A program made the translations under genes and the position numbers. Below the pieces are notes generated by a model. The model was not told where the DNA came from and did no database searches. It saw only the letters and a program-made list of their open reading frames with translations. Source: Eubacterium sp. An11 (lineage in GTDB: Bacteria; Bacillota; Clostridia; Lachnospirales; Lachnospiraceae). Taken from it: DNA of 64,000 nucleotides. The number at the start of each line of letters is the position of its first letter. The first letter of the stretch is position 1. Of the stretch, positions 4,624-50,332 are shown piece after piece. Location of the stretch: positions 1 through 64,000 of the forward strand of contig NZ_NFLV01000007.1 of NCBI RefSeq assembly GCF_002161065.1. Reading direction: 5' to 3'.

Positions 4624-4932
4624 TCACAGCTTCAGCCCGATGGCTTCAGTGATATAGGATGTGATAAAGTCTTTCTTCCTTCCGGTTCCGTGCCGGTCCG
4701 GTATCTCCACAAGCAGCGGTAATTTCCGCTCCAGACGAAAGGTATCAATGATATCCGGAAACTCCCTTCCGAACTTCTCCGTCAGCAGAACGATACCGAC
4801 ACTTTTGTCCGCCAGCACACTTTCCAGCGCTTCCCGGAGTTCTTCTCTCTCATGGACGACCACGCCGTCCACGCCTGCCAGACGCATACCTGTATATGTG
4901 TCCACGTTATCGCTGATGAGATACATTTTCAT
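4624..4932 (-). CDS. atpF: V-type ATP synthase subunit F
   Basis: A 102-residue small rotor subunit that binds subunit D. The sequence shows the Rossmann-like beginning (ISDNVDTYTGMRLAGVDGVVV), the 'GIVLLTEKFG' strand and the 'PLLVEIPDRHG' strand-loop typical of subunit F. The ribosome site GGAGG lies 8-9 bases upstream of the ATG. The repeat array of the preceding spacer runs right up to this ribosome site. Confidence 0.9.
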   Translation of the reverse strand: MKMYLISDNVDTYTGMRLAGVDGVVVHEREELREALESVLADKSVGIVLLTEKFGREFPDIIDTFRLERKLPLLVEIPDRHGTGRKKDFITSYITEAIGLKL

Positions 4933-4944
4933 AGATATCGCCTC

Positions 4945-5353
4945 CTTCGTGCTCCATGCTCATGCGGGAGCGGCTCTGTTCCGCCCGCTGCCGTATACTG
5001 TAACACCTCGGATTGCTCCGCACTTCGTGCTCCATGCTCATGCGGGAGCGGCTCTGTTCCGCCTGCTTCCATATACTGTAACACCTCGGATTGCTCCGCA
5101 CTCTGTGCTCCCGCAATCCTCCCCACATTCGCATTCCCGCACTTCGTGCTCCATGCTCATGCGGGAGCGGCTCTGTTCCGCCTGCTTCCATATACTGTAA
5201 CACCTCGGATTGCTCCGCACTCTGTGCTCCCGCAATCCTTCCCACATTCGCATTCCCGCACTTCGTGCTCCATGCTCATGCGGGAGCGGCTCCCAAAGTC
5301 CTGCTTTTTCACGCCAGCGTGAAAGCATGACTTTCTGGAGCCTGGTGTTACAG
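4945..5353 (-). repeat. Tandemly amplified foldback element between atpK and atpF
   Basis: A 0.4-kb spacer inside the V-ATPase operon. CTTCGTGCTCCATGCTCATG recurs at 4945, 5023, 5142 and 5261 (spacings 78, 119 and 119 bases), so two 119-base super-units are visible. CTGTAACACC recurs at 4998, 5076 and 5195, and its exact reverse complement lies at 5344-5353 across the atpK stop codon. A hairpin (5294-5335, arms AGTC.TGCTTT / AAAGCATGACT) closes the atpK-proximal end. The unit also holds smaller palindromes (GGATTGC...GCAATCC, GCAC-AGA-GTGC). Open frames through it are repeat translations, not genes. A single-copy relative is at 50177-50332. Confidence 0.85.
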
Positions 5354-5785
5354 ATTACCAAGGATCATAAAGGAGATGATCAGACCGTACAGGCAGACAC
5401 CTTCCGCCAGGCCTACGAAAATCAGCGATTTACCAAGGATGCTGGAATCTTCGCTCAGAGCTCCTAAAGCTGCGCTGGCCGCGCTGGCCACAGCGATTCC
5501 GCCGCCGATACAGGAAAGGCCGGTTACCAGGGCCGCCGCCAGATATCCAAGACCGGTGGCAAGGCCTGCGGAGGATGCGGCTGCTGTCTCTGCGGCTTCT
5601 ACCGGATGTCCACTGAACATCACCGCCATGGCGATGAGCAGGGTTCCAAAGAAGAATACCGTGTTGACGCCCAGCGTCCGTTTATAACGTTTTTTACATT
5701 TCTCTCCCAGATAAAAATAACAAAACGGAAGAACAATACTTAAGAGTAAGGCTGCGATTAATACGATCTTAGTTGCTACTGTCAT
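5348..5785 (-). CDS. atpK: V-type ATP synthase subunit K (rotor-ring proteolipid)
   Basis: A 145-residue membrane proteolipid with four predicted transmembrane segments (about 5-24, 42-58, 78-106, 118-143). The last two form a classic c-type hairpin (Gly/Ala-rich helix, polar loop, then GLAEG with the ion-binding Glu128). The first pair is not Gly-rich and carries a basic loop KCKKRYKR. The start is ATG 5785, with GGAGG about 10 bases upstream; an in-frame ATG 31 codons earlier would run into atpI. V99 aligns with the position that is Gln in sodium-binding rings, so proton coupling is inferred. Confidence 0.88.
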   Translation of the reverse strand: MTVATKIVLIAALLLSIVLPFCYFYLGEKCKKRYKRTLGVNTVFFFGTLLIAMAVMFSGHPVEAAETAAASSAGLATGLGYLAAALVTGLSCIGGGIAVASAASAALGALSEDSSILGKSLIFVGLAEGVCLYGLIISFMILGNL

Positions 5786-14643: not shown

Positions 14644-14657
14644 GAATATTCCTTTCC

Positions 14658-14997
14658 GCCATGCACCTCGATTCGCTTTGCTCATCTCGGTCAGGGCATT
14701 CGCCTTCTCTTCCCTGGCGCATCGGCTCCCGCCATGCACCTCGATTCGCTTTGCTCATCTCGGTCAGGGCATTCGCCTTCTCTTCCCTGGCGCATCGGCT
14801 CCCGCCATGCACCTCGATTCGCTTTGCTCATCTCGGTTAGGGCATTCGCCTTCTCTTCCCTGGCGCATCGGCTCCCGCCATGCACCTCGATTCGCTTTGC
14901 TCATCTCGGTTAGGGCATTCGCCCTATAGCTCCAGACATATGTCTCGCCCTTTCGTGCAAGCACGAGGGCTAGCCATATGCCCGTAGCTGCATGGCT
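14658..14997 (-). repeat. Tandem 73-bp repeats plus terminal hairpin between panC and panD
   Basis: A unit starting GCCATGCACCTCGATTCGC begins at 14658, 14731, 14804 and 14877 (exactly 73 bases apart; the fourth is truncated near 14925). The copies are almost identical, with one C/T change. They are followed by a hairpin (TCGTGC-AA-GCACGA at 14953-14966 within GCCC/GGGC arms and longer imperfect arms). GCATGGC lies at about 14989-14996, next to the panC stop codon, and is the reverse complement of the GCCATGC that opens each unit. The architecture matches the atpK-atpF array, though the sequence is unrelated. Confidence 0.88.
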
Positions 14998-17658: not shown

Positions 17659-17948
17659 CTTATCACCTTACTTTCGCAAAGTGACGCTCCGAGTCTCATT
17701 CCCATGGATATAAGCTCAATATTTATCTGTGCTGCACGCGGTATGGTTTCTTCCGAATACCATCCATAAAGCTGCCGTTACAACTATACCATGACCGCCA
17801 TGCGGTCATGCTGCCTCCGGCGGATGCGCAGCGACTTTCTGCGGTCCCGCAGAAATCGCATTATGCGCAGGTATAATGCCAGCTCTGCGGGCATTATACC
17901 ATTCCCGGAGCGTTTCGTAAAGGAAAAAGAGGGGAATTTATTGAAATT
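17659..17948. repeat. Intergenic region with three consecutive hairpins (17790-17901)
   Basis: No gene is supported here. Three perfect stems follow each other: CATGACCGC/GCGGTCATG (17790-17810, loop 3), TTTCTGCGG/CCGCAGAAA (about 17836-17855, loop 2) and GGTATAATGCC/GGCATTATACC (17871-17901, loop 9). They stand between the HAD gene end and the panG start. No T-run follows any of them, so they are not typical terminators. They resemble a clustered palindromic repeat or a structured leader of the pan operon. A short match, GCCTCCGGCGGAT, recurs at about 56343. Confidence 0.6.
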
Positions 17949-50176: not shown

Positions 50177-50332
50177 TGATACCTGCGGATTGCTCCGCAC
50201 TCTGTGCTCCCGCAATCCTCTTATCCATTCGCACTCCGCCCTGCCGGGCTTCCTGCTCATGTCTGAGCAGGTTCCAAAGTCATGCTTTTTCATGTACGCA
50301 TGAAAGCATGACTTTCTGAACCTTTGGTATCA
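50177..50332 (-). repeat. Single-copy foldback element between uvrC and hprK
   Basis: It is homologous to the atpK-atpF array. Shared blocks include GGATTGCTCCGCACTCTGTG followed by CTCCCGCAATCC (near 50188), ATTCGCA(C/T)TCC, a CATG-rich core and the closing hairpin with 17-bp arms (AAAGTCATGCTTTCATG / CATGAAAAAGCATGACTTT, minus sense, 50276-50316). The outer ends are TGATACC (50177-50183) and GGTATCA (50326-50332), exact reverse complements. The latter covers the uvrC stop codon. In the atp copy the outer arms are instead CTGTAACACC/GGTGTTACAG. Confidence 0.82.

Follow-up and report, generated by a model that had tools for sequence, protein, structure and literature searches.

The analyzed window, a stretch of 64,000 nt, contains a V-type ATPase operon on the minus strand with the order ntpC, ntpI, ntpK, spacer, ntpF, ntpE, ntpA, ntpB, and ntpD. 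The subunit names were taken from NCBIfam matches, several of which scored below the curated cut-offs and which were mutually consistent. Counted from the T of the ntpK stop codon, the ATG of ntpF is 418 nt away. On the plus strand, the sequence CTGTAACACC occurs three times (4998-5007, 5076-5085, and 5195-5204), and its reverse complement GGTGTTACAG at 5344-5353 spans the ntpK stop codon (TAA, minus strand, 5350-5348). Viewed on the minus strand, the spacer carries three exact copies of GGTGTTACAG, which are complementary to CTGTAACACC lying over the stop codon. The arm 10-mer was found four times in the 64-kb window, whereas 100 shuffled sequences contained it 0.02 times on average and never more than once, and the four occurrences are not due to chance. 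In addition, two units of 119 nt (5018-5136 and 5137-5255) are 99% identical, the spacer has a further period of 78 nt, and the Shine-Dalgarno motif of ntpF (AGGAGG, 4941-4946) adjoins the array. The threefold 10-mer with its inverse over the stop codon, the two 119-base super-units, and the extension of the array up to the ribosome site of the subunit F gene had all been described in a first-pass annotation of this DNA, and they were confirmed. The features are listed in Table 1.

Table 1. Features of the ntpK-ntpF region and of two further loci in the window
Feature	Position	Strand	Evidence and remarks
ntpF (V-type ATPase subunit F)	4624..4932	-	NCBIfam, below curated cut-offs
Unit 4, truncated head merging into the ntpF ribosome site AGGAGG (4941-4946)	4945..4997	-	
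Unit 3, shorter partial unit (78-nt period), terminated by P1 3' arm copy 3 (4998-5007)	4998..5075	-	
P1 3' arm copy 2	5076..5085	-	
Unit 2, partial Clostridiales-1 match, without 5' arm and first hairpin	5079..5190	-	79 bits; 119-nt repeat
P1 3' arm copy 1 (GGUGUUACAG)	5195..5204	-	
Unit 1, full-length match to Clostridiales-1 RNA (RF01699)	5198..5350	-	128.4 bits, model 1-166
5' arm CUGUAACACC, last ntpK codon + stop codon + P1 5' strand	5344..5353	-	
ntpK (V-type ATPase subunit K)	5348..5785	-	NCBIfam, below cut-offs; 145 aa, orthologue matches
Diverged Clostridiales-1-like array between panC and panD	14656..14996	-	sub-threshold RF01699 match only
Second RF01699 copy, directly after uvrC, UGA = uvrC stop (offset 0)	50177..50332	-	113.8 bits

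A scan of the window with all Rfam families revealed a match to the Clostridiales-1 RNA (RF01699) on the minus strand (5350-5198), which covered the full model (positions 1-166) and scored 128.4 bits, compared to a gathering score of 48. Model position 1 falls on the initial T of the ntpK stop codon. The model also matched 5190-5079 (79 bits) and 50332-50177 (113.8 bits); a search of 14 control genomes yielded 0 matches. Judged by these matches, the region between ntpK and ntpF is a copy of the Clostridiales-1 RNA in the sense orientation of the operon, behind which parts of the unit, including its 3' arm, have been duplicated in tandem; this partial duplication is the source of the additional 3' arms in the array. 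The paired arms are the basal helix P1 of RF01699 (UAACACC/GGUGUUA) plus three base pairs in the last ntpK codon. The complementarity to the stop codon region is thus real, as had been noted, but it is not a separate, captured feature, since 7 of the 10 base pairs belong to helix P1.

In the article of Weinberg et al. 2010 (PMC2864571), Clostridiales-1 is named once in the main text (Table 1), and the rating is probably RNA, probably not cis-regulatory, and probably not a riboswitch. In the literature on Clostridiales-1/RF01699, no stated function was found, and further mentions appeared to be unrelated as far as titles and abstract openings tell. The spacer resembles the published RNA in the sequence and structure of the full model (128 bits) and in its occurrence in Clostridiales, which the article reports from the human gut. 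It differs by its position within an operon, the stop codon in P1, the partial tandem array, and the TIRs and TSDs that were found in the family (see below).

The 159-nt unit (5353-5195) was predicted to fold with a free energy of -85.1 kcal/mol (z -10.1). When a wider region was folded, the MFE structure joined the lone 5' arm to the nearest of the 3' arms, whereas in the ensemble of the spacer alone it paired with arm 1 (the nearest) at 0.20, with arm 2 (the middle one) at 0.78, and with the outermost arm at 0.01. Therefore, the giant stem around the whole array that had been proposed is not predicted. The strong hairpins could also point to an intrinsic terminator, or an attenuator, in the spacer. 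However, no terminator-like site (a GC stem followed by a T run) was found between 4600 and 5900 on either strand, and no promoter-like site for the following operon genes was found on the gene strand of this region, so that this explanation is extremely unlikely. A promoter of its own was also considered for the window copy and was dismissed, because there was no candidate on the gene strand.

RF01699 was found above the cut-off in 17 of the 24 genomes of the window's genus, and with E<=1e-10 in 126 of 299 genomes of the family (one genome per genus). The copy numbers can be high: nine genomes contained 3, 4, 8, 12, 14, at least 40, at least 66, at least 66, and at least 86 matches at E<=1e-9. 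A set of 166 copies was used for comparisons. It comprised 57 of the 62 above-cut-off genus copies, leaving out 5 downstream tandem units, and, from elsewhere, 109 of the best-scoring copies among the matches listed (at most 9 scored per genome); it represents 17 genus genomes and 44 other genomes and is biased to high scores. After dropping copies with short flanks, 157 were usable for the analysis of direct repeats and 160 for that of the right TIR and the TSD. All permutation p-values given below are optimistic, because related copies are not independent.

The two arms of helix P1 vary together. Among the genus copies, 25 distinct P1 arm pairs were present, with 150 of 175 cells in Watson-Crick pairing, compared to 77.5 after shuffling (maximum 100). 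The copies elsewhere had 35 distinct arm pairs and 222 of 245 Watson-Crick cells, compared to 155.7 (maximum 177). The outer arms of other copies had been proposed as a check of the first-pass annotation, and complementary arms were indeed kept in these 25 and 35 distinct pairs. The results argue that RF01699 has an RNA stem P1 that is maintained through covariation. The P1 3' arm is internal to the full element, and therefore, symmetry of the DNA ends alone would be insufficient to account for the P1 pairing. Extra arms downstream of the 166 copies were of the 3' type only in 19 cases, of the 5' type only in 6 cases, and of both types in 1 case.

Outside of the genus, the copies mostly begin with T-GATRCCAGGGTCA (left-end sequence TGATRCCAGGGTCA), close P1 with GGYATCA, and continue to ..TTTTGACCCCAACATC, which is the inverted version of the left end; the sequences of the TIR pair are GATRCCAGGGTCAAAAGG / CCTTTTGACCCCAACATC. 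A right TIR with up to 4 mismatches was present in 71 of 107 of these copies. At the place fixed by the TIR, a TSD, defined as agreement with the left flank at no fewer than 6 of 7 positions, was found for 54 of the 71, compared to a mean of 6.8 and a maximum of 14 in 500 runs with swapped flanks. Likewise, 62 of 157 copies were flanked by direct repeats of 7 nt or more, versus about 7 after flank swapping. The target duplications have a length of 7-8 bp and are only broadly AT-rich. There are also mini-copies that share these ends and have internal deletions, and one of them (L256) is flanked by the 8-bp duplication ATTTAGAT. By these sequence features, i.e., multiple copies, terminal repeats, and target duplications, RF01699 outside of the window's genus looks MITE-like, which appears to be new. 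In the literature on MITEs together with Lachnospiraceae, Clostridiales, or Rfam, searched largely in the main texts of open-access articles, nothing relevant was seen by title among the matches listed.

Similar to bacterial MITEs, RF01699 is short and multicopy and has TIRs as well as AT-rich target duplications of 7-8 bp. It differs from them by the conserved multi-hairpin RNA fold, with P1 joining the left end to an internal site, and a partner transposase was not seen beside the six TIR matches that were read: the TIR pattern matched 12 times in 3 of 5 genomes, and the six flanks contained mini-copies or solo ends and no TIR-paired gene. In the window's genus, the right TIR was found in 3 of 53 copies, and 2 of these 3 had a TSD (1.0 with swapped flanks). 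For the four ntpK copies, including that of the window, no flanking repeat of at least 6 nt was found, and no right TIR was seen in the spacers read. A mobile foldback sequence, one of the two origins that had been suggested, is partly supported by the TIRs, TSDs, and many copies of the family outside of the genus, but neither TIR nor TSD was found at ntpK itself. The other suggestion, a structured mRNA spacer, is also partly right, as the spacer belongs to a curated structured RNA family.

Several further properties of the copies were recorded. A bias for an orientation sense to the upstream gene (66 versus 28) shrank to 53 versus 41 (p = 0.26) after allowing for the 3' tail and was discarded. 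An integron attC site, which the stop codon in the terminal arm brought to mind, was rejected because the ends of the element, as read, do not appear to fit the attC core. TATAAT-like 5' flanks of other RF01699 copies are confounded with the AT-rich target duplications. Nine copies (L060, L069, L071-L073, L075-L077, L088) form a subfamily specific for the species G006, with longer fixed ends (TAACTATTTAAGTGAATAAGTCC) and an upstream stop codon inside or adjoining the left end in 8 of the 9 copies.

Of the 24 genomes of the genus, some of which are incomplete, 4 yielded an ntpK gene, and an intact Clostridiales-1 copy is located at the same base in all 4. In an alignment of these four copies, five base pairs had changed on both sides (columns 11-61, 28-45, 32-39, 77-101, and 128-134), a number that was reached by 1 of 500 shuffles; the same was true for the covariation score (1 of 500). 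The number of further pair types showed no excess, as 443 of 500 shuffles reached it, and four related sequences are a small sample for all of these comparisons. P1 is nearly invariant among the four copies. Extra 3' arms were present in the genomes G000, G022, and G013 and absent from G020, and therefore, the array differs between close species.

In the family, ntpK was present in 60 of 150 genomes, and most of the orthologues examined lack the Clostridiales-1 insert. In the best 29 of the 59 ntpK loci outside of the window, the spacer did not exceed 58 nt, and 8 of them read CTGTAA. An inverted copy of the stop region, i.e., a 3' arm, was found in none of these 29, and neither was an empty site that already held both arms, which had been put forward as a counter-case. 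A second collection of 80 ntpK loci contained 41 spacers of up to 30 nt, 14 of 31-80 nt, 22 longer ones, and 3 that could not be determined; three of the 22 long spacers belonged to genus members. At 15 ntpK loci of other genera, 10 of them titled Mediterraneibacter including two from one assembly, a different insert or spacer headed TAAYRYCA (mostly TAAYACCAG) occupies the same stop codon (e.g., L284, L302, L314, L315, L328, L333, and L346). A sixteenth locus, L330, has the same head and a spacer of 27 nt. The inverse of the first 7 nt was absent from all 15 spacers of other genera and present in all three genus spacers. No sense match to RF01699 was obtained at E<=0.5 in the 14 scanned loci of the 15; two further loci (L334 and L354) gave a sub-threshold antisense match. 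In five of its host genomes, the insert was located only at ntpK junctions, as judged by coordinates, and 7 of the 15 loci were aligned. Either the TAACACC head preceded the gain of the 3' arm at the ntpK stop, or the inserts of other genera are relatives in which the 3' arm was lost. As these inserts share the head, have no matching 3' arm, and gave no sense match in the 14 scanned loci, the ntpK junction may predate the insertion discussed here. The shared head agrees equally with an older insert and with inverted copying of the host flank (see below).

The location of the stop codon in P1 is not restricted to ntpK. When ORFs of 100 codons or more were considered, the upstream gene ended with its stop codon exactly at model position 1 for 12 of the 57 copies from the genus, which represent 6 genes, and for 4 of the 109 copies from elsewhere. 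As a control, genes reading towards the 3' end were analyzed, and a stop codon at that place was found in 2 of 57 genus copies and 2 of 109 other copies. The native stop codon lies at model position 1 for ntpK, gltD (profile end 484/485), and panC (282/283). Ten of 17 gltD loci were compared, 3 of which were filled (G000, G020, and G022) and 7 empty (G013, G007, G002, G008, G009, G017, and G005); the empty site of G013 reads TAACCA, and the filled sites read TAACCACC..GGTGGTTA. At uvrC, the stop codon is supplied by the element's own TGA. Ten of 24 uvrC loci were read, and the element is intact in G000 and decayed in G020, G013, and G022, so that the RNA is dispensable at uvrC. At the uvrC end of G022 (L367), a bare palindrome, TGATGATATCATATCATCA, is present where G000 has the element; perhaps it represents the arms left after loss of the interior.

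These coincidences could be explained by target-directed insertion, i.e., the element would recognize targets such as (Y)TGTAA or GTATAA, and the TAA in the core of the target would account for the stop codon in P1. The excess of 12 over 2 of 57 genus copies is in agreement with this, as are the identical ends of ntpK and gltD in filled genomes (AAYCTGTAA) and the end GTATAA that panC has both in G023, where it carries an RF01699 copy, and in the window. However, the stop codon of uvrC comes from the element itself, and the canonical target duplications have no more than a broad AT-richness in common. Target-directed insertion is considered unlikely.

It had further been proposed to compare the outer arms with the stop region of the respective host gene. 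Pairing of the flanks beyond P1 was quantified for 48 genus copies and 108 other copies that remained after removal of short or identical flanks. In the genus, including orthologues, the mean was 2.50 nt, compared to 0.80 nt with swapped flanks. Values were 3.76 versus 2.22 for the 17 copies of the TAAGTCC subfamily and 3.64 versus 2.69 (p = 0.004; p = 0.043 for matches at 10 positions) for the 11 copies that remained without G006. Outside of the genus, the excess was very small (0.81 versus 0.65 nt, 108 copies, p = 0.011; p = 0.20 for matches at 10 positions), and the outer arms were mostly the element's own TGATRCC/GGYATCA. A match beyond swapped flanks was thus seen in the genus, but elsewhere the flanks hardly match. 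From the sequences compared, a host-matched outer arm appears to be a feature of the window's genus, and it could stem from selection on the stem, from target choice, or from inverted copying.

The last possibility would be a foldback process, in which an inverted copy of the host 5' flank, including the stop codon, was introduced into the 3' flank after insertion, e.g., by template-switch correction of an imperfect palindrome. The better match of the outer arm to its own than to swapped flanks in the genus would be expected from such a process, and P1 arms that vary from site to site and still pair fit as well. Also in favor are the short-spacer sites (CTGTAA in 8 of 29, an inverted stop-region copy in 0 of 29), the whole 7-nt arm TAACACC that other genera have at this ntpK stop without a 3' arm, and the gltD sites, TAACCA in the empty G013 versus TAACCACC..GGTGGTTA in filled genomes. 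In contrast, the flanks outside of the genus hardly match, several matches in the genus can reflect a shared preference for TGTA/T-tract targets, orthologues are among the 48 copies, the outer match at ntpK of G020 extends just 1 nt beyond P1, and the inserts of other genera may instead be related to the element and have undergone loss of the 3' arm. Taken together, inverted copying of the host flank is quite improbable.

The explanation that we consider probable is that the spacer is an RF01699 copy derived from a MITE-like element, which was retained as a tolerated or useful folded intercistronic spacer and grew in tandem. The copy would descend from such an element at the end of ntpK; as genus copies mostly have no right TIR and no TSD was seen at ntpK, the assumption that it arose by an insertion with TSD is based on the family. 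It would have been retained because a folded RNA is tolerated or useful between the two cistrons, and the array may have grown by slippage or by unequal exchange between near-identical units. The sequences suggest that the ntpK-ntpF copy likely acts as a structured intercistronic spacer. As such, it would uncouple translation of ntpF from that of ntpK. A ribosome terminating at the ntpK stop would have to open P1, and therefore, formation of the stem would be limited to the intervals between terminating ribosomes. In addition, the compact fold may shield the ntpK portion of the message at its 3' end; the product of this portion, NtpK, is needed in more copies than NtpF.

An alternative to this retained, folded spacer is a selfish remnant, tolerated at the gene end since the operon is read through, with tandem growth and arm matching both being due to neutral mutation in a sequence rich in hairpins. 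The many copies per genome, the decay of the uvrC copy in three of four species, and the 19 of 166 copies that are followed by additional 3' arms but by no additional 5' arms are in line with a remnant. However, all four ntpK copies are intact and contain compensatory changes, and P1 shows strong covariation among copies, and a purely selfish remnant is rather unlikely. More far-reaching would be a mobile element that remakes its outer arm at each site, thereby closing the RNA over the stop codon, with the rival 3' arms forming a translation-coupled switch; this is very improbable.

REP/BIME-type repeats are palindromic, intercistronic, and can stabilize the upstream mRNA. RF01699 resembles them as a palindromic repeat between cistrons and differs in sequence and size. 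If most RF01699 copies are mobile with target duplications, the annotation as a small RNA gene would need revision, and RF01699 would be a non-autonomous element that retains a complex RNA fold. The ntpK, gltD, uvrC, and panC sites would then represent a natural series from intact to decayed copies, in which the point at which an insert is drawn into operon regulation could be studied.

The window contains one further array, which is located between panC and panD and has only diverged similarity to RF01699 (34.2 bits, E = 7.7e-6). It consists of one 5' arm GCCATGC after the stop codon and four 3' arms GCATGGC with a spacing of 73 nt, an architecture that equals that of the ntpK spacer. Unlike at ntpK, the outermost 3' arm is paired at 0.99 and is predicted to close the whole array. 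A pan motif RNA (RF01749, 45.5 bits) is present at 17687-17766 (minus strand), near the panC-panD genes.
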